From Planctomicrobium piriforme (GTDB lineage Bacteria; Planctomycetota; Planctomycetia; Planctomycetales; Planctomycetaceae): a DNA stretch of 49,714 bases. The position numbers were made by a program, and so were the translations under genes. The stretch is from the NCBI GenBank assembly GCA_945860955.1, contig CAMATH010000056.1, positions 1 to 49,714 of the forward strand, read 5' to 3'. Under the pieces are notes generated by a model. That model searched no databases and was not told the DNA's origin. It saw only the letters and a program-made list of their open reading frames with translations. The stretch's first letter is position 1. The number at the start of each line of letters is the position of its first letter. Shown here piece after piece: positions 23,504-40,445 of the stretch.

Positions 23504-24364
23504 TCACGCCGCCCCAAACACCTCTGCCGCCATCCCGAGATCGCGCACCGACGTTGCGATTTCCTCAAGCTCGGTATCGGTCAGCGCCCCGACAAAATCC
23601 TCGGCTGGCCGACGCGCCACTGTGTAAACCTGGACCAAGCGGATCTGTCCACCTGCGGCGCGGATGTCCCGCAATCGCTCACACCACGCGGTGAGTTCCT
23701 CCACGGAGGGGGGATCACCGTGCAGCCGCATGAACAAGGCCTGAATCACGATGGGCCGTACGCGGGCGGCCGATGTGATGTTGTCGAGAATCTGCCGAAA
23801 CGGGATCGGCGTCCGATCGACCCGCTGAAAATACTCAGGTGTTCCCGCTTCCAGTTTGGCCCAGACTTCGCCCTGGTTGGCGTCCAGAATCTCAAGGGCC
23901 CGCGCGACCGCGGGCCTGTGCAGCATGCTGGCGTTGGTGATCAGCACCAGTTTCACATCGTTGAGGCCATGCTTCTGTTTCAAAGCCGCCGCCGCCGCGA
24001 CGATTTCGTCGAAGTTGCGATACGTCGTCGGCTCACCGTCCCCGGCGAACGCGATGTCGTTGATGCGCTTGCGGTCAGCGGGAGTCGACGCGAACTTTCC
24101 TTCGCGAAAAATCTCGCCGCTGGCAGCGTAGTCCAGCATCGAATCGAGTTCCGCCAGCAATCGTTCGGTCTCAACGAACTTTGACTCGGCCTGGCTGCGG
24201 CGATCGACCTGACAGTAAACACAGTCGAAATTGCAGACCTTGTCAGGGTTCAAGTTGACCCCGATCGAAATCCCGCGACTCCGGCGGGACAGAACCGGGT
24301 AGATGAACTTGAAGTTCTCGAAGTTGCGGGAATGGCCGCGATGCAGCGTCTGGAGGTCGGACAT
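23504..24364 (-). CDS. Radical SAM protein
   Basis: A 286-residue protein with the 4Fe-4S motif CNFDCVYC (CxxxCxxC) preceded by IGVNLNPDKV and a SAM-binding AGDGEPT (GGE-type motif) about 60 residues later. The rest is a radical SAM partial TIM barrel (VLITNASML; WAKLEAGTPEYF). No SPASM or second cluster motif is seen. The ATG overlaps the dapB stop as TGATG (24362-24366), indicating coupling. The reaction is not predictable from sequence; stable pairing with dapB would suggest a housekeeping role. Confidence 0.85.
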   Translation of the reverse strand: MSDLQTLHRGHSRNFENFKFIYPVLSRRSRGISIGVNLNPDKVCNFDCVYCQVDRRSQAESKFVETERLLAELDSMLDYAASGEIFREGKFASTPADRKRINDIAFAGDGEPTTYRNFDEIVAAAAALKQKHGLNDVKLVLITNASMLHRPAVARALEILDANQGEVWAKLEAGTPEYFQRVDRTPIPFRQILDNITSAARVRPIVIQALFMRLHGDPPSVEELTAWCERLRDIRAAGGQIRLVQVYTVARRPAEDFVGALTDTELEEIATSVRDLGMAAEVFGAA

Positions 24365-28050: not shown

Positions 28051-28272
28051 TCAGGCCCCGCGGCGCATATTCCAGTATGTGGACAGGACTTCGTAGAGGT
28101 CGGACGAGATTTGGACGTCGTCGTGACGGAAGTCGCGGAGCCAGGCACGGCGGCTCTGAGACGCGTCGGTCAGAATGGAGACGAGTTCCCCCAATGGGAT
28201 CGTGACCCGATTTTCGTTCACCAGCGACTCTTGAGCTTCTTCACCTGTGTAGAGCTTCAATCGCGACTGCAT
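28051..28272 (-). CDS. Small conserved-looking hypothetical protein
   Basis: A 73-residue acidic/basic protein (MQSRLKLYTGEEAQESL...VTIPLGELVSILTDA...SSDLYEVLSTYWNMRRGA). It has no TM segment or signal peptide; the composition is that of a real folded protein. The ribosome binding site is weak (AGGGATG about 8-14 nt upstream). It may be co-transcribed with the ABC ATPase, whose start is 71 bp further on. I do not recognise a family. Confidence 0.6.
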   Translation of the reverse strand: MQSRLKLYTGEEAQESLVNENRVTIPLGELVSILTDASQSRRAWLRDFRHDDVQISSDLYEVLSTYWNMRRGA

Positions 28273-29596: not shown

Positions 29597-29751
29597 TCGA
29601 TAACGCCCCACAGAACGGTTTTTGAAATGCGGTAACGCAGCGGCGGGAGCTTGGCGTCCCGCGGTCATTTCACCACTCCGTATTGCGCCGCGACGATGTG
29701 CGCTTCCCGAAGGATCGCCTCACGCCCGGCGAATTGCGAGTGGTTTCGTCC

Positions 29752-30165
29752 TCAACCCGACGGACGGTTTTTCTTGCCTTCGCTGGGGGGCGGTTTTGAC
29801 GGCGCGAGAATCGACATCACCACTCCTTGCACCTCCGCGACGCTGAATGGCTTTCGAAGTGTCCACTCCGCCCCAAACGCGGCGGCGTCGGGCAGGTAGT
29901 CCATGCCGTAGACCGAGATCCCTCCACTGATCGCGAGGATCGGCAGTGAAGGGACGCTTCGCCGGAGGTGAATGATGGTTTCCAGCCCGTTTTTCTCGGG
30001 CATGTTGATATCGCAAATCACCAGGTCGGCCGGCCCGGCGACAAACCGACGCAACCCGTCTTCGCCGTTTGCCGCTTCGTCGACTACCAGTCCGATCAGC
30101 TCCAGCGACCGACGGATCAGTCGTCGGATTTTCGCGTCATCATCGATCACCAGAACTCGAGACAT
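29752..30165 (-). CDS. Single-domain response regulator (CheY-like receiver)
   Basis: Tandem ATGs at 30168 and 30165; about 137 residues. It has the acidic pair in VLVIDDDAKI, the phospho-acceptor Asp in LVICDINMPEKNG, the switch Ser in ILAISGGI and the conserved Lys in TLRKPFSV. A short basic, Pro-rich tail (PSKPPPSEGKKNRPSG) replaces an output domain. The cognate histidine kinase is not in the window. Output probably goes through protein-protein contact. Confidence 0.93.
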   Translation of the reverse strand: MSRVLVIDDDAKIRRLIRRSLELIGLVVDEAANGEDGLRRFVAGPADLVICDINMPEKNGLETIIHLRRSVPSLPILAISGGISVYGMDYLPDAAAFGAEWTLRKPFSVAEVQGVVMSILAPSKPPPSEGKKNRPSG

Positions 30166-30310
30166 CATGCGCTGTCCGTTCCAGTTGGAATCCAGTGGCT
30201 TGGACGAGCATGCAAACCGACCACGACACCGGGCCCACCCGTCGGAATAGGAAACGTATCTTCCTCTCCACGACGCGTTTTGCCAATAGCGCTGTGATCA
30301 GAATTCCGCT

Positions 30311-30348
30311 GCACCGGTTGATTCGCGTCGTGCGTAACCAACCGGTGC
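30311..30348. other. 10-bp perfect inverted repeat between peptide and regulator genes
   Basis: GCACCGGTTG (30311-30320) and CAACCGGTGC (30339-30348) flank 18 nt. It lies 32 nt beyond the stop of the GG-leader peptide gene and upstream of the response regulator. It may be a termination hairpin without T-tract, or a binding site for a dimeric regulator of the response regulator gene. Confidence 0.45.
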
Positions 30349-30380
30349 GGTTGCGGGAAGGGGGGGTTAAATGCGGCTTC

Positions 30381-30626
30381 CTACGGTTGAGTGCTCGGAG
30401 TGTAGCCGGTCACGCCAGGCCCAGGAAGTTGCGTTCCGCCCGTACTTGTTCCGCCACTGCCGCTTGTGCTGGTGCCACTTGTTCCGCTCGTTGACGTTCC
30501 ATTCGGATTAGTACTCGGCGTGAACGTCGTCGCCATGGTCGGGTCGGTTCCACCGAAAATCCCCTTCACCTCGTCCGGTGTCAGTGACTCGAGCATCGGC
30601 AGGTCGTCAATCTTGATCTTCGCCAT
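30381..30626 (-). CDS. Small protein with double-glycine-type leader and Ser/Thr/Gly-rich tail
   Basis: An 81-residue protein with AAGGA about 9 nt upstream of its ATG. The first 26 residues, MAKIKIDDLP then SLTPDEVKGIFGG, look like a leader ending in Gly-Gly, the type cleaved by peptidase-containing ABC exporters and found on bacteriocin-like and RiPP-like precursors. The remaining 55 residues are mostly Ser, Thr, Gly and Pro (SGTSGTSTSGSGGTSTGG) with no Cys. No exporter, peptidase or modification enzyme is adjacent. A perfect TGTGA-N6-TCACA site lies about 135 bp upstream. Whether the core is a product, a signal or a surface peptide is unknown. Confidence 0.75.
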   Translation of the reverse strand: MAKIKIDDLPMLESLTPDEVKGIFGGTDPTMATTFTPSTNPNGTSTSGTSGTSTSGSGGTSTGGTQLPGPGVTGYTPSTQP

Positions 30627-31066
30627 GGTCGCAATCCTTCAGGATTTCGGACAACCGATCGGGAGAACGAGTCGCTCCGACGTGGAGCTACCGAAGTCGT
30701 CACACACTCGATTCAGGTCGTCAACATCAGAAATCCTACTCGACCGGCCGTTTTTGTACTGTGATAAAAGTCACAAATCGGTGGTTTCCGAACATTCGAA
30801 CCGCATCTGCCTGACTGCGGTTTCATTTCAGGCCGCAAGAAGGAACAGCTCGTCGATTTCCGGAACAAATCCATGAACCGTTGATCGTTCGACTCACGCG
30901 TTCGGCCGAGATGAAACCCATTCAGAGTAAGAACCGGTTCGTCGCGTGACCCAGGGAAGGACTCGCTGCGCTCGACCAACCCTGGGCATTGCAATAACAC
31001 CCCTACGAGGTAGACGCGCAGTACTGCCATTCGGGTCTTGAATTTGTCTGGTGCGTTCAGACGCGA
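30627..31066. other. Intergenic region upstream of the GG-leader peptide gene
   Basis: About 440 bp between the end of the microcompartment operon and the peptide gene. It holds the CRP-like site at 30760-30775 and a weak inverted pair CCAGGG/CCCTGG (about 30951-30986) which could lie in the trailer of the BMC transcript. No supported gene. Confidence 0.45.
30760..30775. promoter_or_regulatory. CRP/FNR-family-like operator
   Basis: The sequence TGTGATAAAAGTCACA is a perfect palindromic match to the CRP consensus TGTGA-N6-TCACA. Its centre is about 141 bp upstream of the GG-leader peptide start codon, within a 440-bp gene-free stretch, consistent with control of that gene. Confidence 0.55.
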
Positions 31067-31990
31067 CTAAAGAACCTTCTGAATCGTCTCCCGCAACACC
31101 TCGCCCGACTTTTGCAAGGCGATCTTCTCCTTGGGCCACAGCTCCACTTCCACGTGGTTCAATACCCCCTTGCGGCCCACCACCGTCGGAACCGAGATCG
31201 CGACGTCCCGCAATCCGTAGGCTCCCGACTGCAACGACGAGACCGGTAGAATTCGGCGTTGATCCAAAGCGACTGCGTGAACCACGTCGGCGATCGAGAC
31301 CCCCACCGCAAAGCCGGCTCCTCCCTTTTTCTTGATCACCTCGGCACCGCTTCCCCGAGTTTTCTTTTCCACCTCGGCGATCAACGCGCTGTTGACCCCC
31401 GGGAACTTCTCGAGCGGCAGACCCGCGATCTGCGCCTGCGACCAGATCGGCACCATGCTGTCGCCATGTTCGCCGAAGATCGTGACTTGAACCTGCGTCG
31501 GCGGCACATCGATGCGGGCCGCCAACATGCTTCGCAGTCGGGTCGTGTCCAGCACCGTTCCCAGCCCAATCACCTGAGCCGGCGGCAATCCCAATTCGCG
31601 GATCGCCAGATACGTCAACACGTCCACCGGATTAGAAACCACAAAGACGATCGCGTCTTTCTTGAGTCCCGACTTCTTGAGATCCCCCAGAATCCCCCGA
31701 AACAGCGACACATTGCGGTTGATGAGATCGAGCCGGCTTTCGTCGGGCTTCCGTCGCAGGCCGGCGGTGATCACCACCATGTCGCTGTCGGCGCACGCCT
31801 GAGTCGGGGCGGCGTAGATCTTCTGATCCGCGATCAGGCTCGCCCCGTGTAACAGGTCCAGGGCCTGTCCTTCGACAAGTTCCTGATTCACGTCGACCAG
31901 GACGATCTCACGCACGATCCGCCCGGCCTGCAACGCGAACCCCGCGCACGAACCGACCAGACCGCCACCGCCAATAATGCTGACTTTCAT
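31067..31990 (-). CDS. Lactate/malate dehydrogenase family protein of the PVM microcompartment operon
   Basis: A 307-residue NAD-dependent dehydrogenase. N-terminal VSIIGGGGLVGS is the dinucleotide loop. The catalytic pair is seen in LGTVLDTTRLRSML (Asp and Arg) and IFGEHGDSMVP (His). The substrate-specificity loop AGLRRKPDESRLDL has Arg at the position where lactate dehydrogenases have Gln, as malate dehydrogenases do. In PVM loci this gene is proposed to regenerate NAD+ for the aldehyde dehydrogenase or act on the lactate/lactaldehyde branch; the physiological substrate is not settled by sequence. No encapsulation peptide is visible. It is the last gene of the operon, 61 bp after the aldolase. 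Confidence 0.88.
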   Translation of the reverse strand: MKVSIIGGGGLVGSCAGFALQAGRIVREIVLVDVNQELVEGQALDLLHGASLIADQKIYAAPTQACADSDMVVITAGLRRKPDESRLDLINRNVSLFRGILGDLKKSGLKKDAIVFVVSNPVDVLTYLAIRELGLPPAQVIGLGTVLDTTRLRSMLAARIDVPPTQVQVTIFGEHGDSMVPIWSQAQIAGLPLEKFPGVNSALIAEVEKKTRGSGAEVIKKKGGAGFAVGVSIADVVHAVALDQRRILPVSSLQSGAYGLRDVAISVPTVVGRKGVLNHVEVELWPKEKIALQKSGEVLRETIQKVL

Positions 31991-32051
31991 GCTTGACTCT
32001 CAGGAATCGCTGTTCGTTGGAAGGTGGGGGAAATTCGTCCGTCAACCGCCG

Positions 32052-32957
32052 TTAGCGCTGCCCCATCGCCGCCATCACTTGTTCGGTGATCATCCGAACC
32101 ATCGCCTCTAGATCCGTACCCGCGGGAATGGTTCCCGCAGGCTGGATGCTCGCGCTCGTGGCTGGCTGCAGGTAGCCCGGGTATTGCGGGGGCGGTTCAA
32201 ACGCCTTCGGTTGCGGCAGGTTCTCGTGGTACCCGTCTCGGAATGCGGTGTTGCCGCACAAGTCACAGTTGTCCACATGGAACCGCGGATCGTCAAACCC
32301 CAGTTTCTTCTTGAGATCCAGCAACTCCCGGGATTTTTGTTCGTTCAAATAGCTGATGCCGCCGAGTTGCCGGGACAGAATCAGAATCCGGCAGTAGGCG
32401 TCAACAATTTCCGTCTTCCAGTACGCCTCTTCCAGCTCTTTGCCAAAGCTGACGGTGCCGTGATTCGTGAGGATGATGCAGCTCGTCCCCGGTTTCAGGA
32501 ACGGCAACACAGTCTCGGCGAAAGGCGATCCGCCCGGGGTCTCGTAGGGGGCGAACGGAATTTCGCCGAGAAACACTTCAATTTCGGGGAGTACGCACTG
32601 CGGAATCGGTTCGCGGGCGACACCGAACGCGGTAGCGTGGGGCGGGTGGCAGTGCACGACCGCGCGAATATCGGGTCGCGCCTTCATGATCGCCAGGTGC
32701 AACAGAATCTCGCTGGTGCGCTTCCGCTTCCCAGCGATCTGACCGCCGTTGAGGTCGACGGCACAAATGTCGTCGGGAGTCATAAACCCCTTGCAGATCA
32801 TCGTGGGGGAGCAAAGCACTTCGTTGTCGCCGACGCGATACGAGATATTCCCGTCATTGGCGGCGGCGAATCCCTTGTTGTACACCCGTCGGCCGATCTC
32901 GCAGATCTGCTCTTTGATCTTGCGGTCGTTGATGCCGGAATTCCACTGGTTGCTCAT
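32052..32957 (-). CDS. pvmN: Class II (zinc) aldolase of the PVM microcompartment, fuculose/rhamnulose-phosphate type
   Basis: A 301-residue protein. Residues 1-225 are the class II aldolase/adducin fold: zinc ligands in VVHCHPPHATAF and LTNHGTVSFG, and the likely catalytic Glu in KRTSEILLHLA. A CxxC pair (VDNCDLCGNTAF) follows, then a Pro-rich linker and a C-terminal amphipathic helix TDLEAMVRMITEQVMAAMG, the form of a BMC encapsulation peptide. In planctomycetes the homologue cleaves L-fuculose- and L-rhamnulose-1-phosphate to DHAP and L-lactaldehyde (Erbilgin et al. 2014). The pvm letter is assigned from memory of that locus order. It lies between BMC-P and the dehydrogenase. Confidence 0.92.
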   Translation of the reverse strand: MSNQWNSGINDRKIKEQICEIGRRVYNKGFAAANDGNISYRVGDNEVLCSPTMICKGFMTPDDICAVDLNGGQIAGKRKRTSEILLHLAIMKARPDIRAVVHCHPPHATAFGVAREPIPQCVLPEIEVFLGEIPFAPYETPGGSPFAETVLPFLKPGTSCIILTNHGTVSFGKELEEAYWKTEIVDAYCRILILSRQLGGISYLNEQKSRELLDLKKKLGFDDPRFHVDNCDLCGNTAFRDGYHENLPQPKAFEPPPQYPGYLQPATSASIQPAGTIPAGTDLEAMVRMITEQVMAAMGQR

Positions 32958-33033
32958 GGGGACTCTGAGGCTTTTCTGTAGGTGGGAGTGTGATTCGTAT
33001 GAGAAGGGCGGAAACTCGCGGGCGTCCGCGAGT

Positions 33034-33321
33034 TCATTCCGCCATCAATTCGACGGTATCCAACAGCGCGGCGTTGTACGCATCGACCGGTTTCAGCTCG
33101 GGGAGAAACGGGGCGGCCGCCTCTCCTCCTTCGCTGATCGCGATCTTTGCTCCTTCACCCGCGCCCAAATGATCGAAAACGACGAACGGTTCGCCGCGCC
33201 CGCTCTCGGTACCACGCAGGCCGTCGAGCGTGAACGGCACCGTCATCAGCCACGTCGCTCCACGGAGCGTCGGATGGCAACGGCTCAGGGTGACTTTTCC
33301 AATGACTTCGCCAATGCGCAT
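33034..33321 (-). CDS. pvmM: BMC-P pentameric shell vertex protein (EutN/CcmL family), third copy
   Basis: A 95-residue protein beginning MRIGEVIGKVTLSRCHPTL. The EutN/CcmL barrel is clear: FVVFDHLGAGEGAKIAISEGG is the conserved pore-proximal GAG(E)G segment. Such proteins form pentamers that cap the vertices of the polyhedral shell. It starts 9 bp after the stop of the uncharacterised gene upstream. It is the third BMC-P of the operon, and the three are divergent from one another. Symbol by locus order. Confidence 0.92.
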   Translation of the reverse strand: MRIGEVIGKVTLSRCHPTLRGATWLMTVPFTLDGLRGTESGRGEPFVVFDHLGAGEGAKIAISEGGEAAAPFLPELKPVDAYNAALLDTVELMAE

Positions 33322-33330
33322 GACTCGCTC

Positions 33331-34227
33331 CTAACGGTCGAGGGCTTTGAACAGCCCCGTCAGTTCAAACGAACCGCGTTTCGAACCGTCGAACGCGACA
33401 ACGTTGGGCCGGAACGACTCGTTCAGACGGAGGATCGCCCCCACGTCGGCGATGGCGGCGGCACGCACCTTTTCATTTCGACTCGCCAGGCACGCCACCC
33501 ATTCGGGGGCCGCCGACAGAATGAACACGTTGTCCGCTTCGCCTCGGCAAATCGCGCTGATCGCCTGCGTCGCCGCGTCCGCCGGGTCTCCCGCGAGTCG
33601 CTGATCGACGAGGGCACCGCTCGCCTGCCAGGTTGCGATCGCACCAGTCAATTCCGGTGTGGGTTGCGCCGCCACCAGGATCCAGCGACCACGTGGGACG
33701 CTCTTCGTCTTCGGGTCGGCGGACTCGCGGACCACTTCAAGACGACGGCTGCGGACCACATCATGCGCCGACGGCGTCAACAACGCCTTCGCGCTCACCC
33801 GCACAATGCGAGCGCCGTGCAATTGCTTTTCAAGAACTTCCGCCGTGATGATCCGCTCGGTGATCGTCACCTCAGCGGTGACGACTGTCGCTTGGGGGCC
33901 GAATGCGGATGGTGGCAGATTCACGGGAGCGGGAACCGCCGCGACTGATCCCGACACACCAGTGCGGGCGGGGGAGGGGAGGGGATTGGCCGGGCTGGCG
34001 GTCGTCGAAACTGCGACGTCGATCAGCGCCGGTGCGGCGGCCGGGGCTTCGAACCGGCTGGGGGGCGTCAACAGACGACCGCCATTGGCCTCAGTCGAAC
34101 TTATCGTTTCGACGAAGACTGGCTCGGGGTTGGTGACTGGCTCGGGGCGCGGCGTCTGCGCCACACCCGGCAGTTGCTGCAGGATGCGCCGCACGATCTC
34201 GTCGACTAACGCCGCGTCGTTGTTCAT
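33331..34227 (-). CDS. Uncharacterised PVM operon protein with encapsulation-peptide-like N-terminus
   Basis: ATG 34227 (MNNDAALVDEIVRRILQQL) overlaps the BMC-P stop as ATGA and gives 298 residues. The first 20 form an amphipathic helix like the encapsulation peptides of the PduL and aldehyde dehydrogenase genes in this operon. A Pro/Ala-rich linker of about 100 residues follows. The C-terminal part begins with VTITERIITAEVLEKQLHG and SAKALLTPSAHDVVR, reminiscent of BMC accessory proteins, then AISAICRGEADNVFIL and LASRNEKVRAAAIADVGAI, which faintly resemble RpiB/LacAB sugar-phosphate isomerases without their active-site motif. I infer a lumen cargo or scaffold; no function is established. 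Confidence 0.8.
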   Translation of the reverse strand: MNNDAALVDEIVRRILQQLPGVAQTPRPEPVTNPEPVFVETISSTEANGGRLLTPPSRFEAPAAAPALIDVAVSTTASPANPLPSPARTGVSGSVAAVPAPVNLPPSAFGPQATVVTAEVTITERIITAEVLEKQLHGARIVRVSAKALLTPSAHDVVRSRRLEVVRESADPKTKSVPRGRWILVAAQPTPELTGAIATWQASGALVDQRLAGDPADAATQAISAICRGEADNVFILSAAPEWVACLASRNEKVRAAAIADVGAILRLNESFRPNVVAFDGSKRGSFELTGLFKALDR

Positions 34228-34481
34228 GTGTCGGGCAATCCGATGATCGCCCATCTCAAGGGGGTTGTGTTCGCGCCCACCAGGTCACGCACCGCCGCTC
34301 CGTCCGAAGTGATCAGCACGGTGTCTCCCTGTCGGCTTCCCAACGGATCAATCGCCAGTTGCGGTTCTCCGTCGGGCTTGCGCGACGCGTCGAGCGGCTG
34401 CACAATCAACAGCTTCCAGCCATTCAGGCTGGCATGCTTGATGGTGGAGGTAACGCGACCGACGACTTGGGCAAGTTGCAT
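34224..34481 (-). CDS. pvmK: BMC-P shell vertex protein (EutN/CcmL family), second copy
   Basis: ATG 34481 (MQLAQVVGRVTSTIKH) gives 85 residues, the usual BMC-P length; the frame to 34526 would overlap the aldehyde dehydrogenase. The segment KLLIVQPLDASRKPDGEPQL is typical EutN/CcmL, while the pore segment reads LGSRQGDTVLITSDG instead of GAGEG. It lies 11 bp after the aldehyde dehydrogenase and overlaps the next gene by ATGA, so translation is coupled. Symbol by locus order. Confidence 0.9.
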   Translation of the reverse strand: MQLAQVVGRVTSTIKHASLNGWKLLIVQPLDASRKPDGEPQLAIDPLGSRQGDTVLITSDGAAVRDLVGANTTPLRWAIIGLPDT

Positions 34482-34492
34482 TTCGGCAGTGA

Positions 34493-35908
34493 TTAAAGGA
34501 TGTGCAGATCGTCCACCAGCACACACCGCCGCTGGCGAGTGAAAGTCAGCGGCGTCGTGACCCCTTCACCGGTCGGAGTCGCGATGCTGTAGCTCAGGTA
34601 GCCTTCGCCCCCGAGTCCCAGTCCCGCCATGCACGGGCCATTCTTGATGAACAGCGTCGTGTCCATTTCGCGAGCCATGATCGTCATGTTCCGCACGTTG
34701 CGACTGTGAATGATCGCGGTGTGGCGGTAGCCATGCTCGTGTTTCTTGGCCAAATCCACCGCCTGGCGGAAATCGCGAACGCGCACGATCGGGAGGACCG
34801 GCATCATCTGTTCCTGCGAGACGAATGGATTCGACTCGTCGGTCTCGGCGTAGAGGATCTGTGTTCCAGCCGGCACATTGACGCCAATCAGGCCGGCGAT
34901 GACCGCCGGATCGCGACCGATCAAGTCGCGGTTCAGCATCGGATGGTCTTTACCCGGCGTGAAGGCGATCGCCGTCAGTTGTTCCATCTGCGAGCGGGAA
35001 AGTTGGAAACCGCCATGGCGACCGAGCGCATCCATCAGTTTGGGGAAGATCGCATCGACCGCGAAGACCTCTTTCTCACCGATGCAGAGCAGGTTGTTGT
35101 CGTACGCACAGCCTTTCACGATGTTCTTGGCGGCGTTCTCTGGGCACGCGGTTTCATCGACAACGACCGGCGGATTCCCCGGACCGGCGACCACCGCTCG
35201 CTTTCGGCTCTCCATCGCGGCGCGAGCGACGGCTGGTCCGCCGGTGACCACAAGCATTCGCACCCCTTTGTGTTCGAAAATGCCGGCGGCGGATTCGAGC
35301 GTGGGCTTCTCGATGATGGTGATCAGGTTTTCCAGTCCGGTCGCGGCGTAGATCGCCTTGTTAAACCGACGCACTCCGTCGACCGCGATCCGCGCTCCCG
35401 AGGGGTGGGCATTGAAGACGACCGTGTTCCCCGAGGCGATCATGCTGACCGAGTTGCCCGCCAATGTCGGGAGCGAGTGGGTCACCGGGGTGATCGCGCC
35501 GATGACGCCGAAGGGAGCATGCTCCAGCAGGGTAATCCCCTGGTCGCCGCTGAAGCAATCGGTCTTCAGGAACTCGACACCGGGAACCAGCCGCAGGATC
35601 TGCAGCTTCTCGATTTTGTGATCGAGCCGGCCGATCTTGGTCTCGTCGAATTCGAGCTTGCCGAGTTCTTCGGCCTGTTCCGACGTGATCTTCCGGATGC
35701 AGTCGATCGCCTTGGCGCGATCCGAGATTGGCCGGGTCGATAGTTTTTTGAATGCCGCAGTGGCGGCGTCGACCGCTTGGTCGACGGTGGGAAAGACGCC
35801 CCAATCACCCGACTGACCGCGCGAAGAAGCCGCTGTGAACGGAGCCCGCCCGAGCTGCGAGAGGACTTCCTGAACCACCTGGCGGATCGCCGCTTCCGTT
35901 GTCTGCAT
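34493..35908 (-). CDS. pvmJ: CoA-acylating aldehyde dehydrogenase of the PVM microcompartment
   Basis: ATG 35908 ([20 protein letters not shown]) is preferred to TTG 35917; 471 residues. The first ~18 residues form an encapsulation-peptide helix, then a linker ([16 protein letters not shown]). The catalytic domain follows the PduP/EutE pattern: [40 protein letters not shown], and [13 protein letters not shown] with the candidate catalytic Cys. It should oxidise L-lactaldehyde to lactyl-CoA with NAD+ inside the shell, where the volatile aldehyde is contained. It is between the membrane protein and a BMC-P gene. Confidence 0.93.
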
Positions 35909-35981
35909 GTTCTTCAACTCACCCGGTTTTCGACTAAAAGACGACCTGGAACCACGTCGGCACTTGGTGGCCGACAGACCG

Positions 35982-36473
35982 TCAAAATGTGCGTTCGATC
36001 AAGTCCCGTTGCTCAACCAGCCAGGTTTCCAGCCTCTCGGCGGAAGGCCACTTCCTGAGCATCAATCCCGCGAAGAAGGCGACCAGCAGCAGCAACCACC
36101 ACTCACCCGTAACAATGAAGCAAATGAGCGAAAAGAACATCGCTCCTTCGAGCAACGCGGCGGAAAAGATGACGGACCCGTTGTGAATCTTTATCAGGTC
36201 GGCATCCGAAACCCCCGCTGGTGACTCGGCGAGACTTCGACGTTGACGGTTGATGTGCATGGGGGGCACGACAAACGATAAAACCGCTTGTGTTCCGCCA
36301 ACCACGCAGGCCACCACCACCAGAATGACATTCGGCGCCGCAAAAGCCCCTCCGCTTCGAGCGGCGATCGCGACCATCGCGAACAAGGTCGCCCCCGCGA
36401 GGAGCGCTCCCAGGAACACGCGTTCCATGCGCACCGCACCGGCTATCAATTCCTCACGACCGGAAGTATCCAT
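35982..36473 (-). CDS. Integral membrane protein within the microcompartment operon
   Basis: ATG 36473 ([16 protein letters not shown]) gives 163 residues. Four hydrophobic stretches are visible: [54 protein letters not shown] and [15 protein letters not shown]. The loops are basic ([11 protein letters not shown]). It is 17 bp after a BMC-P gene and 73 bp before the aldehyde dehydrogenase, firmly inside the operon. I do not recognise the family. A membrane protein is unexpected in a protein-shelled organelle locus; transport or shell tethering are possibilities only. Confidence 0.85.
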
Positions 36474-36490
36474 GGAGCGTCCCGCCAAAC

Positions 36491-36802
36491 TCAATTCTTG
36501 CTGTCGAAGATCGTCTTCCCGAACACCTGCACTTGATCCACGATGCCGATGATGGCCGCGTCGATTGGGAGCGACTTTGTTTCGGGCGTGTAACGGGCGC
36601 TGGACCCCTGAACACACAACACACACTCTCCTTCGCCAGCACCCACCGTATCGACCACCACGAACGAACGGCCGGTTGGCTTCAGACTTCCCTGGTCCTT
36701 TTCATCGACCCGTAACGGCTCGACGAGCAGCAGCTTCTGCCCGACCATCGACGACACTTTCTGCGTCGAAATCAGGCTTCCGGTAATCCGTGCCACGAAC
36801 AT
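36491..36802 (-). CDS. pvmH: BMC-P shell vertex protein (EutN/CcmL family), first copy
   Basis: A 103-residue protein beginning MFVARITGSLISTQKVSSMV. Typical EutN/CcmL sequence is present: KLLLVEPLRVDEKDQGSL and VVVDTVGAGEGECVLCVQG, with the GAGEG pore segment intact. The C-terminus IDAAIIGIVDQVQVFG is the final strand and helix. It lies 59 bp after acetate kinase. It forms shell vertices together with the other two BMC-P proteins, possibly as different pentamers. Symbol by locus order. Confidence 0.94.
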   Translation of the reverse strand: MFVARITGSLISTQKVSSMVGQKLLLVEPLRVDEKDQGSLKPTGRSFVVVDTVGAGEGECVLCVQGSSARYTPETKSLPIDAAIIGIVDQVQVFGKTIFDSKN

Positions 36803-36861
36803 CGTTCACCAATCCTGGCTGGGGCTTCGAGCGAAAACTTGGGAGACGATAACCGGCGGGC

Positions 36862-38067
36862 TTACGCCGCGCCGCTCGCCTCGCGGTTGGCGAGCGCCTC
36901 GACCGATTGGCGCGCCACCACAATCTCTTCGTTCGTGGGAACGACCCACACCTGAACCTTGCTTCCCGGCTTCGAGAGACGCGCCTCGCCCTTCGCCGAG
37001 TCGTTCAGGGCTTCATCCAACTCAATGCCGGCCCACTCCATGTCGCGACAGACGTCTCGACGGACCAGCCGGCTGTTTTCTCCAATTCCACCGCTGAACA
37101 CAATCGCGTCGGCTCCCCCCAGCAGGGCAAGATAGCCCCCCAGGTACAGCCGAATCGACGAGACGAACGCATCGAGCGCCAATTTGGCGCGGACGTGTCC
37201 ATTCGCGGCGGCCTGTTCCAGGTCGCGCACGTCGGGACTCAATCCGCTGAGGCCCAACAGGCCTCCCTTGCTCGATAGCTCTTCCAGCAACTGTTCCAGC
37301 GTTTTACCGGTCTTTCGCAGCAAAATCGGGAGCGAAAACGCGTCGAAGTCTCCCACACGGTTGTTGTGCGGCAGACCGGTCTGCGGACTCATTCCCAGCG
37401 TGTTTGCCTGCGATTGGCCGTTCTTCACGGCACACAGCGAATTGCTGCCGCCGAGATGGCACGTCACCAGTTTCAGATCGCTGCGTCCCAGCAGTTGAGC
37501 CATGCGTGTCGAAAGAAATCGATGGCTTGCGCCATGAAATCCCCAACGGCAGATTTCGTGCTGCTCTTTCCATTCGTAAGGAATGGCGTAAACCCGGTTC
37601 GGTTCGGGAATCGTCTCGTGAAACGCCGTTTCGAGCGCCGCCACCAGCGGAATCTGCGGAAACGCTTTCCGCAACTGCCGCATGGCCCGGGCGTACATCG
37701 GGTTATGTGCCGGCGCGATGTCGGCGAGTTCTTCCATCTTCGCCAGCAGCGCTTCGTCGACAATCCGCACGCCCGAGAGATTCCCGGCGAAGACGGCCTT
37801 GAAACCGATCGCCGACACTTCGTCAGCAGATTTCAGGCAGCCCCATTCGGGATTCATCAGCGAGTCGAGACAGATCTTGACCGCCGCCGCATGGTCGGGA
37901 ACCGACAACGTCGATTCTTCCCGGTGTCCCCCGATTTCCACAAAACAGGCGCTGTTGCCCTGACCGATGCGGTCGATACCGCCGCGGGCGATCTGCGTCT
38001 CCTGGGGAAGGTCGAACAGCCGGTATTTGAAGCTGGTCGAACCGAGGTTGGCGACAAGGATTTTCAT
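36862..38067 (-). CDS. ackA: Acetate kinase family protein (lactyl/acyl-phosphate kinase of the BMC)
   Basis: A 401-residue ASKHA-fold kinase of full family length. Motifs: [16 protein letters not shown] (family NxGSSSxK), [32 protein letters not shown] with the catalytic Arg region, and [10 protein letters not shown]. The nucleotide-site segment [11 protein letters not shown] diverges from the usual HLGNGSS. In this operon it would convert the acyl phosphate made by PduL to lactate with ATP formation. No encapsulation helix is seen, so it may act outside the shell. A pair of hairpins precedes the gene. Confidence 0.93.
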
Positions 38068-38075
38068 CGGGCGTA

Positions 38076-38126
38076 GCGTGGGTTTGCCCCACGCGTCAAG
38101 AATTCGCGTGGATTAAAAATCCACGC
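38076..38126. other. Tandem hairpins between BMC-H and acetate kinase genes
   Basis: GCGTGGG-TTTGC-CCCACGC (38076-38094) and GCGTGGATT-AAA-AATCCACGC (38106-38126) are perfect stems in the 68-bp gap between the second BMC-H stop and the ackA start. They are placed to stabilise the upstream shell mRNA or attenuate transcription into the enzyme genes. They might instead be a dispersed repeat. Confidence 0.6.
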
Positions 38127-38135
38127 CACGGCGGA

Positions 38136-38411
38136 CTACTTCTTGTTGACGAAGTGGTCGAGAACGCTCTTTTCAGGGCGGGCGATCACATGGGCGGCGA
38201 CCAGTTCGCCAACCTTTTTCGCGACCGCGGCACCCGCGTCAACCGCCGCCCGAACCGAGCCGACGTCTCCACGCACGATGGTCGTGATAAACGCTCCGCC
38301 GATTTGCACCATGCCAACCAACTGCACGTTGGCCGACTTGAGCATGGCGTCGGCCGCTTCGATCTGGGCGACGAGTCCCTTGGTTTCAATCAAGCCAATG
38401 GCTTCATTCAT
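38136..38411 (-). CDS. pvmE: BMC-H hexameric shell protein, second copy
   Basis: ATG 38411 ([16 protein letters not shown]) gives 91 residues, the usual BMC-H length; the frame to 38507 only adds unconserved sequence, and AGGTG lies upstream. The Pfam00936 fold is plain: [41 protein letters not shown] and VISARP-like HVIARPEKS. Such proteins tile the facets of the shell as hexamers with a central pore. It is about 70% like the upstream copy in the core by eye. It is 102 bp downstream of the other BMC-H. Symbol by locus order. Confidence 0.95.
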
Positions 38412-38513
38412 TGCTAACACACCTGGAGTGACAACTTGTTCCAGAAGAACGTCGGCGGATGGGCTGGAACTCGCCCGCTTGCCGGCCGCGGCTCGACGAA
38501 TGGCCACAGCAAG

Positions 38514-38822
38514 CTAGCTCGCCGCTCCGGTCGCCGCCTTGCCCGGCTTGGGCAGAATCGCCGCCAGTTCTTCGTGCGGCCGGGGAATGACCTGCACGCT
38601 GATCACTTCACCGACTTTGCTGGCGGCCGATGCGCCGGCGTCGACGGCGGCCTTCACGGCGGCGACATCACCGACCACGAACACCGTCACCATCCCGCTG
38701 CCGACCTTCTCCCAGCCGACAATCTGCACATTCGCCGACTTCAGCATCGCGTCCGACGCCTCGATCAACGCGATCAAACCCTTGGTTTCGATCATTCCAA
38801 GGGCTTCCAACGTTTTCGCCAT
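38514..38822 (-). CDS. pvmD: BMC-H hexameric shell protein, first copy
   Basis: ATG 38822 ([16 protein letters not shown]), with GGAG upstream, gives 102 residues. Core motifs [41 protein letters not shown] and [14 protein letters not shown] are standard BMC-H. The pore loop reads KVGSG here against QIGGA in the second copy, so the two hexamers should have different pores. The C-terminal tail ([16 protein letters not shown]) is longer than in the second copy. It is 63 bp after pduL. Symbol by locus order. Confidence 0.95.
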
Positions 38823-38885
38823 GTTCAAAACTCCAGAAAGGTCTTGTGAGGATTCGGAAAGTCCGACTCAGTTCAATCGCAGTGA

Positions 38886-39590
38886 CTACTTGTGCTGACA
38901 CGCGCACGGTTCCGCCTTCAACAACTCCACTTTAGTGGCTTTTTCGAGGTTCACCGCGTTTCCTTCGTCGGTGTCGACGTGAACCTCGAGGCGGATCTCC
39001 TTCCCCGCGCGAACTGTCAGGTCTTCCAGCACGGTCGCACAACCGGGCGATTCGATCCGCAGGTTCATCTTCTCTCCGTCCTTGACTCCGTAATACGCCA
39101 GGTCGGCCGGCCCCATATGCACGTGCCGCATCGCCCGGATCACGCCTGACTGCAACTCGACAACCCCTTTCGGCCCCACCAGCAAGCAGCCCGGTGTATC
39201 CTTCAGGTCACCACTGATTCGGACCGGCAGGTCGATACCCAGCGAGATCCCGTCGGTGAATGCCAGTTCGACTTGCGACGCCCCCCGGCATGGTCCCAAC
39301 ACCCGCACTTCAGGCAGCATGCGACGCCGAGGCCCTACGACGGCGACCGTCTGCTTCGCGGCGAAGTACCCCACCTGGTATAGATCTTTTTGAATTTCGA
39401 GTTGCGCCCCTTTGCCGAACAGCACTTCCAGGTCTTCCTGCGACAGATGCACGTGCCGGGCGGAGATATTGACCACCAGCGGGTTGGGCTTGGTCGCGGG
39501 GGCGGCCGGCGCGCCGAGGTGACGCAACAGCACATCGCGAACCACTTGCTCGACGGCGGCTCGGGTCAATTCGGGGGACGACAACGCCAT
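38886..39590 (-). CDS. pduL: PduL-type phosphotransacylase
   Basis: ATG 39590 has AAGGA 8 nt upstream and gives 234 residues; a GTG at 39596 overlapping the regulator stop (GTGA) is an alternative. The N-terminal helix [20 protein letters not shown] is an encapsulation peptide. Two PduL beta-barrel domains follow, with the paired zinc ligands [13 protein letters not shown] and [14 protein letters not shown]. PduL transfers the acyl group from CoA to phosphate, recycling CoA inside the shell; here the substrate is probably lactyl-CoA. The C-terminus ends CACQHK. It is the first structural gene after the regulator. Confidence 0.95.
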
Positions 39591-39592
39591 GT

Positions 39593-40351
39593 TCACAGTC
39601 CTTGGGCGATCAGCAGTTCAATTCCGGCAGCTTCCACAATCCGCTTCCATTCGTCGGTGATCCCGGAATCGACCACCAGACGGTGTACCCGTCCCAGCTC
39701 GCACAAATGGGCCAGGGCCGAGTGCCCCAGCTTGGAGCTGTCGGTCACCACAATCACTTCGTCGGCGACCTCCAGCATCGCCCGCTCGGTATCCGCCAGC
39801 AGCGTGTTGCTGTTGAACAGACCGCGCGGAGTAATCCCTCCCACACTCATAAACAGCCGACGGACGCGAATGTGAGACAGAGCCGCGATCGCGAGCGGAC
39901 CGAGGGCTACCCCCGTTTTCGGATAGAGGTATCCCCCCACCATCAACAATTCGATCTGCGGTTGATTCGCCAGCAGATTGACAACAGGCAGGGAATTCGT
40001 CGCAACCTGCAGTGACTTCCCAATCAGATGCCGGGCGACTTCGAGGGTTGTGGTTCCACCGTCGAGCAGAACCGCTTCGCCATTGGCCACCAGATCGGCC
40101 GCCACTCGACCGACCGCCTGTTTTTCCGGCCGCGCCTGAAAAGACCGCTCGTCCAGTGTGACGATCGATTCTCCCACGTACGCCGCCCCACCCCGTGTTC
40201 TACGGACTTGACCAATCTTCTCCAGCGCCTCCAGATCCCGACGAACCGTCGACTCACTGACCCCCGCCTGTTCGGCCAACTGTGGCAAAGAGGCGAAGCC
40301 CAGAGTTTCGATCAGACTCAGGATCTGTTGACGACGCTGGTCCAGAAGCAT
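39593..40351 (-). CDS. DeoR-family transcriptional regulator of the microcompartment operon
   Basis: ATG 40351 ([17 protein letters not shown]) gives 252 residues; the frame to 40375 begins with TTG. The N-terminal winged helix-turn-helix is typical ([26 protein letters not shown]). The C-terminal sugar-phosphate sensor domain has [23 protein letters not shown] and [13 protein letters not shown]. DeoR proteins usually repress and are released by a phosphorylated sugar, which would fit induction by fucose or rhamnose metabolites. The gene overlaps or abuts pduL, so it is probably part of the operon it controls. Confidence 0.93.
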
Positions 40352-40445
40352 GGGTGTTTGAGGGTGACTTGGCAATCTGGGCCGCGTGTGATGCCCATTG
40401 TGCGCTCATGGTGACGCAGTTTCAAGCATTGGATGTCAGAAAATC

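Follow-up and report, generated by a model that had tools for sequence, protein, structure and literature searches.

A double-glycine leader precursor with a disordered Ser/Thr/Gly/Pro-rich core in Planctomicrobium piriforme: a candidate CRP-controlled substrate of a HetC-like C39 exporter

The window, a stretch of 49,714 nucleotides from Planctomicrobium piriforme (contig CAMATH010000056.1 of assembly GCA_945860955.1, here C56 of genome G000), holds a short open reading frame on its minus strand. A first-pass annotation had credited this ORF with a good leader for a peptidase-containing exporter, and we found it exactly where it had been placed. The features below include one locus elsewhere in the same genome; G002 is a second genome of the genus.

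30381..30626, minus strand: precursor peptide ORF of 81 aa (ATG at 30626, stop at 30381-30383)
30549..30626, minus strand: double-glycine leader of 26 aa, MAKIKIDDLPMLESLTPDEVKGIFGG (L-12, E-8, V-7, I-4, G-2, G-1; residues 1-30 identical in G002)
30384..30548, minus strand: predicted mature peptide of 55 aa (80% Ser/Thr/Gly/Pro, without Cys; predicted disordered)
30306..30356, minus strand: strong hairpin in the gap between the peptide and response regulator genes (z -5.42; G002 counterpart z -3.35; no U-tract)
29752..30168, minus strand: receiver-only response regulator of 138 aa (same neighbour in G002, 87% identical)
30627..30710, minus strand: strongly conserved stretch directly 5' of the ATG (82/84 bases as in G002)
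30733..30738, minus strand: TAGGAT, a -10-like box (in G000 and G002 alike, its centre is 32 nt away from that of the palindrome)
30760..30775: CRP-type palindrome TGTGA-N6-TCACA (kept in G002 at the same spacing; 1 of 5 in the 8.4-Mb genome)
L159 9489-10981 (G000:C15): PpiC-type isomerase and CRP-type regulator in overlapping frames (the GTG start of the CRP-type gene overlaps the end of the isomerase gene)

The precursor begins with MAKIKIDDLPMLESLTPDEVKGIFGG, whose GG is residues 25-26, and continues with TDPT.... The published rule for C39 leaders (PMC6959990, PMC6363468) is L at -12, E at -8, L at -7, a hydrophobic residue at -4 and GG; the peptide has L, E, V (at -7), I (at -4) and GG, and so fits it. 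The window has 186 ORFs of 40-150 aa, and one of them contains a double-glycine motif composed with this leader in view, M-x6..24-[LMIVF][ST]xxE[LMVIF]xx[LIVMF]xG[GAS]; among the 19,381 ORFs of that size range obtained from 60 dinucleotide shuffles the motif was met in none. The predicted mature chain, TDPTMATTF...STQP, is composed of 17 T, 9 S, 11 G and 7 P among its 55 residues, with zero Cys, Lys, Arg or His; its charge is limited to one Asp, leaving it nearly uncharged. The Cys-free Ser/Thr/Gly/Pro composition and the GTSTSG-type repeats that had been described for the core are both there. The AF2 model has one longer helix at residues 17-23 (positions -10 to -4) followed by a flexible chain; its confidence is low (mean pLDDT 50), and the core is predicted to be disordered. 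Pfam and NCBIfam returned no credible match for the peptide, the sole rows standing at E 0.6-0.7.

An ortholog in G002, 70% identical, reveals how the gene has been conserved. Residues 1-30 are identical (30/30), whereas beyond residue 30 only 27/51 residues of the window peptide recur, with indels of whole codons among the differences. The 90 bases at the leader end carry five base changes, all silent and at third positions; third-position agreement is 25/30 over residues 1-30 and 111/135 in the response regulator gene, the same rate. The identical N-terminus, the confinement of its base changes to third positions and the whole-codon indels show that the ORF is coding. The contrast of 30/30 with 27/51 further argues that selection preserves every residue of the leader, and in the core acts mainly on composition and on the two ends (TDPT... 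and PGPG.T.YT.ST.P are kept in G002). No third ortholog was present in 170 family genomes, 392 phylum genomes or the species-representative contigs, a set in which the window's own genome may itself be absent. The ORF is almost certainly the precursor of a double-glycine leader peptide.

Neither tblastn nor a profile built from 8 leader rows uncovered another copy of the leader in its own genome. With a degenerate DNA pattern there were 6 matches in it and 5 in the reversed control, and reading of L036, L037 (the window) and L038, with L033-L035 left out, placed the leader in the window alone. Across the family, 9 of 170 genomes gave leader matches at E <= 0.5, and in 5 of the 9 (G000, G002, G083, G084 and G015) a short ORF begins at the leader; the recurrence of the leader on short ORFs of related genomes, on which the first-pass annotation had staked its reading, is thus borne out by similar leaders in G002, G083, G084 and G015. 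We rejected the matches in G183, G136, G094 and G074, in which no short ORF starts at the leader. In a phylum-wide set of 392 genomes the profile gave matches at E <= 0.1 in 27, own genome counted; L053 (G220) and L070 (G252) were read and the others screened by regular expression alone, and most of these matches fall within long frames and look like chance. Because the G252 leaders carry GQ or GR in place of GG, we count them as weak. L079 (9948-10175) and L080 (9964-10191) each encode a 75-aa protein whose DLP leader has FGAG at its end; both lie just 3' of an ECF-type sigma factor gene recognized by eye, with an exporter elsewhere in the genome.

A search of the genome for C39-peptidase ABC exporters had also been proposed, and it succeeded. 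The assembly (8.4 Mb, 98.9% complete) contains a single C39 match (E 1.3e-40), G000:C156, a protein of 1056 aa with two cNMP_binding domains followed by C39, ABC_membrane and ABC_tran, encoded directly after an HlyD gene. The C39 motifs Q..DCGP, GYH and GDP are all present, and their Cys, His and Asp we take to be the catalytic residues, as in PCAT1. Against NCBIfam the protein scores higher to the HlyB-type model TIGR01846 (603.5 bits) than to TIGR03796 (573.5) or the peptide-cleaving TIGR01193 (515.2), all under cut-off (853.3 for TIGR03796, whose match spans the C39-ABC part). Peptide (C56) and exporter (C156) are found on separate contigs; genetic linkage is usual for such pairs without being obligatory, and no leader motif occurs in the exporter locus (L039).

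In G002 the exporter is represented by its last 265 residues (792-1056), 97-100% identical, with which contig C1142 begins; there is one frame change near residue 956. The C39 part would fall past the contig end, and no C39 match was obtained in G002 at E 1e-8. The other two genomes of the genus, G003 (99% complete) and G001 (83%), have no leader match and no C39 match. Neither has an ortholog of the exporter, the best matches (35% and 33%) leaving the C39 part uncovered, or of the response regulator, where other receivers gave partial matches of just 36% and 44%.

Among the four genomes of the genus, therefore, the peptide, the response regulator, the exporter ortholog and an above-cut-off HTH_Crp_2 protein occur in the same two, G000 and G002, a count in which G001 is just 83% complete and the G002 exporter is a fragment. 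With two orthologs in a single genus, the co-occurrence of peptide and exporter may be one event. The wider family offers a second measure. The five genomes with true leaders all fall within the 19 of 170 that bear an exporter, defined as a C39 frame of at least 730 aa at E < 1e-29 (18 genomes) plus the G002 fragment; G151 and G127, with long frames and weaker C39 matches, were left out. The hypergeometric chance of this overlap is 1e-5 for five genomes and 1.2e-3 if they are counted as three lineages. In G083 and G084, likewise, leader gene and exporter are on different contigs.

We compared the exporter locus with 19 others (L081, L082, L083 and L103-L118). The nearest exporter is that of G015, 50% identical over its full length and 57.6% in the C39 domain, and two double-glycine leader proteins lie 1.6 and 2.5 kb before it; their leader, MPIQILDLPEPEDLTAEEAAAVFGG, is one of the few that resemble the window leader. 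Regular-expression leader ORFs are plausible in 2 of the 20 exporter loci (L082, L103), with a possible 31-aa one in L113, and reading added leader-like ORFs in L081 and L083. Since L081 and L083 were fetched because of their leaders, the leader count among exporter loci is biased. The regular-expression ORFs of L079, L080, L081, L103, L105, L111, L113 and L117 that we judged by eye not to be leaders were discarded. The double-glycine leader proteins at L082 1534-1848 and 2389-2706 and at L103 7467-7733, encoded next to the C39 exporters of two planctomycete genomes, have basic mature parts that resemble one another; G015 has two copies that are nearly identical, and none of them has an NCBIfam match above cut-off. 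L081 4706-12926 is a module of its own. It holds two ABC proteins, one with a cNMP domain and a weak C39 match and the other with C39, together with HlyD, a PPIase stretch resembling TIGR04500 and a peptide with a GGG leader.

The region upstream of the peptide gene suggests how it may be regulated. Its palindrome, TGTGACTTTTATCACA on the minus strand, has perfect arms and reads TGTGACTTTTGTCACA in G002; the spacer from palindrome to TAGGAT has diverged between the two genomes, and its length is kept. In class II CRP promoters the palindrome centre lies about 32 nt from the centre of the -10 box. A putative site at a 32-nt spacing, in a genome that encodes a CRP-type regulator, would be consistent with a promoter of this class. 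The chance of one of the five sites landing in the 440-bp upstream region is approximately 3e-4, before conservation is counted. TGTGA-N6-TCACA against its reversed control numbered 5/3 in G000, 4/2 in G002, 1/2 in G003 and 1/0 in G001; as the palindrome class is hardly enriched, the argument for the site is a local one. We excluded the other TGTGA site common to G000 (C16) and G002 (C293), which lies inside an 851-aa coding frame. No palindrome with 0-1 mismatch occurs near the exporter or the PPIase-CRP operon, the best by the exporter having 2 mismatches.

HTH_Crp_2 identifies one G000 protein above cut-off, that encoded on C15, and a second match below it; the C15 protein and its G002 counterpart are identical at 204/215 positions, and in G003 and G001 the matches are under cut-off only. 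Because 14 of 14 control genomes also have HTH_Crp_2 matches, the presence of the domain is unspecific. The recognition helix of the C15 protein, SRETVSRIL, lines up with the Vfr helix of solved structures, and its Arg and Glu presumably read TGTGA. The isomerase encoded with the regulator matches the 'peptide maturation' family TIGR04500 at 77 bits (cut-off 180); of the 20 exporter loci, L081 and L083 encode homologs of it, and the L083 homolog also matches TIGR04500 below cut-off. The pieces of the secretion module thus appear to be scattered over three contigs.

Between palindrome and gene, identity over 30627-30710 exceeds that at third positions of the leader and response regulator (82/84 vs 136/165, P 1.6e-5). 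We considered and rejected a riboswitch-like 5' element at this place, as its folding is no stronger than that of shuffled sequences (z -0.55, or -0.02 when the leader is included), and Rfam gave no match at E <= 1 in 29600-31066. Conservation without a shuffle-beating fold leads us to prefer promoter or UTR constraint to a structured RNA. The gene is probably under CRP-type control.

The leader, the conserved gene, the exporter genes, their co-occurrence and the promoter palindrome we read together, with somewhat better than even confidence, as marking the precursor of a disordered extracellular or matrix peptide that is CRP-controlled and secreted by a HetC-like exporter. The CRP-family activator (G000:C15) would bind TGTGACTTTTATCACA and turn the gene on from a class-II-type promoter. 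For the steps after precursor synthesis, which we infer from homology, the leader helix would dock onto C39 in the peptidase-ABC exporter with two cNBDs (G000:C156), the C39 Cys would cleave after GG, and the 55-residue chain would leave through the exporter and its HlyD adaptor; the PpiC-type isomerase may assist. Export of the peptide is well supported, and the C156 protein is very probably the exporter that performs it.

What the exported chain does is a more tentative matter. In composition it is suited to being a hydrated extracellular polymer or a peptide of the cell surface, possibly O-glycosylated, and the chain is most likely either unmodified or O-glycosylated; no glycosyltransferase was present among the window proteins scanned (the response regulator, the DUF1559 protein and ten more, three of these ten without a Pfam match). 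Being nearly uncharged, Cys-free and predicted to be disordered, it is most likely an extracellular or surface peptide (matrix, attachment) rather than a membrane-active bacteriocin. A matrix or surface role in particular we put forward tentatively, at rather less than even confidence.

The neighbourhood of the gene bears on the alternatives. The block conserved with G002 runs ABC ATPase, 73-aa ORF, DUF1559 gene, response regulator, peptide. Its 73-aa ORF (28051-28272) is 98.6% identical in G002 and has no Pfam match, and the 30306-30356 hairpin, with a 13-bp main stem, could be an attenuator, a stabiliser or a repeat element. Directly 5' of the peptide gene is a bacterial microcompartment (BMC) locus (31067-40375) that was not found on the G002 contig; Pfam identified in it an Ldh-type dehydrogenase, a class II aldolase, an aldehyde dehydrogenase and a BMC shell protein, and a DeoR-like regulator was recognized by eye. 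In G002 the upstream neighbour of the peptide gene is instead an SGNH-hydrolase-like gene (by eye), and the called ORFs of its 16.8-kb contig include no BMC-region matches.

The exported chain might instead be a pheromone, that is, a cell-cell signal acting perhaps through the adjoining response regulator or in developmental control. HetC, a cNBD-C39-ABC exporter, has been proposed to export a signalling peptide (PMC10986499). The receiver-only response regulator keeps its place beside the peptide gene in both the window and G002, which leads us to retain this reading, as an unlikely one: the regulator has no output domain, no sensor kinase is found for it among the scanned neighbours, and the core is long, of low complexity and drifting where the leader is fixed, unlike a receptor ligand.

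The abundance of Ser and Thr would also suit a modified RiPP, in which these residues are turned into azol(in)es, joined by ester or amide bridges or otherwise changed before export, and a TIGR04500-type PPIase and a PCAT do belong to a graspetide cluster (PMC13097080). A radical-SAM protein is encoded in the window (23504-24364), but it lies 6 kb off and outside the block shared with G002, within which the genes conserved with the peptide include no modifying enzyme. YcaO, LanM and ATP-grasp are absent from the ten window proteins scanned, the enzyme that the graspetide precedent needs being ATP-grasp, and the core has no Cys and one Asp; modification of this kind is quite improbable.

A class II bacteriocin or microcin would have the same type of leader and exporter. 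The core, however, has no hydrophobic, amphipathic or cationic stretch such as a membrane-active core would have, and no immunity gene was recognized among the nearest G002-conserved neighbours (the response regulator, the DUF1559 gene and the 73-aa ORF). We consider this reading very unlikely, and the first-pass view that this is not a classical bacteriocin stands. A microcompartment cargo tag, with an N-terminal helix and flexible linker as in encapsulation peptides, would match the helix at 17-23 and the same-strand BMC locus beginning 440 bp upstream, but it is scarcely credible and disfavoured by gene context, since in G002, the one relative available, the gene is not beside BMC genes, and neither a cargo domain nor an explanation for the exact leader spacing is at hand.

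Returning to the reading of an exported matrix or surface peptide, one may extend it to a dispersed, second-messenger-gated secretion module, in which the CRP-type regulator induces the peptide and the two-cNMP-domain exporter releases it only when nucleotide-bound. We regard this extension as doubtful. If it were true, a nucleotide signal (cAMP, ppGpp or other) would gate release, and planctomycetes would have a switch resembling HetC, governing a change of matrix or of cell type, whose substrate is identified.

Earlier work predicted bacteriocin genes in Planctomycetes (PMC4990742), and our literature search, which included the available parts of PMC3482391, PMC4990742 and PMC7794033, returned no study of C39-exported peptides in this phylum. 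The nearest tested precedent is EbfG1-4/PteB of Synechococcus elongatus PCC 7942, in which small GG-motif proteins are released with a C39-peptidase ABC transporter (PMC4997328). Their role (PMC4997328, PMC9981879) is in biofilm development, which the GG-motif proteins enable, and not as an antibiotic. The likeness is one of leader and exporter type. ebfG1-4 are described as sharing a transcript, and a single cloned fragment carried them together with pteB, whereas the window gene and its exporter are on different contigs, and the latter, unlike PteB, has two cNMP-binding domains.

In domain plan the exporter resembles HetC of Nostoc PCC 7120, a C39-ABC exporter with an N-terminal cNMP-binding domain and cysteine-peptidase activity. 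That domain binds ppGpp in vitro, and the substrate is stated as an open question (PMC10986499). The two are alike in combining a cNMP domain with the C39-ABC plan and in having no GG-leader gene adjoining; HetC has one described cNMP domain and no known substrate, whereas the C156 exporter has two domains and a candidate substrate.

CtA/PCAT1 and LahA/LahT follow the same leader rule as the window peptide, and the PCAT1-type leader helix spans -10 to -4, the positions of the helix predicted by AF2; their exporters are Gram-positive, and the available passages mention no cNMP domain (PMC6959990, PMC6363468). The graspetide cluster (PMC13097080) pairs TIGR04500 with a TIGR03796 PCAT, families matched respectively by the CRP-operon and L083 PPIases and by the C156 exporter. 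Unlike that cluster, the matches here are below the cut-offs (180 and 853.3 bits), the exporter scores higher to TIGR01846, and no ATP-grasp partner is seen.

This kind of secretion is already known, and the peptide is a new member of it that has an unusual core and a plausible regulatory circuit. The peptide brings a core unlike an antibiotic into the double-glycine class. As cNMP-domain exporters now stand beside, or co-occur with, named double-glycine leader proteins, their pairing becomes testable with purified parts.
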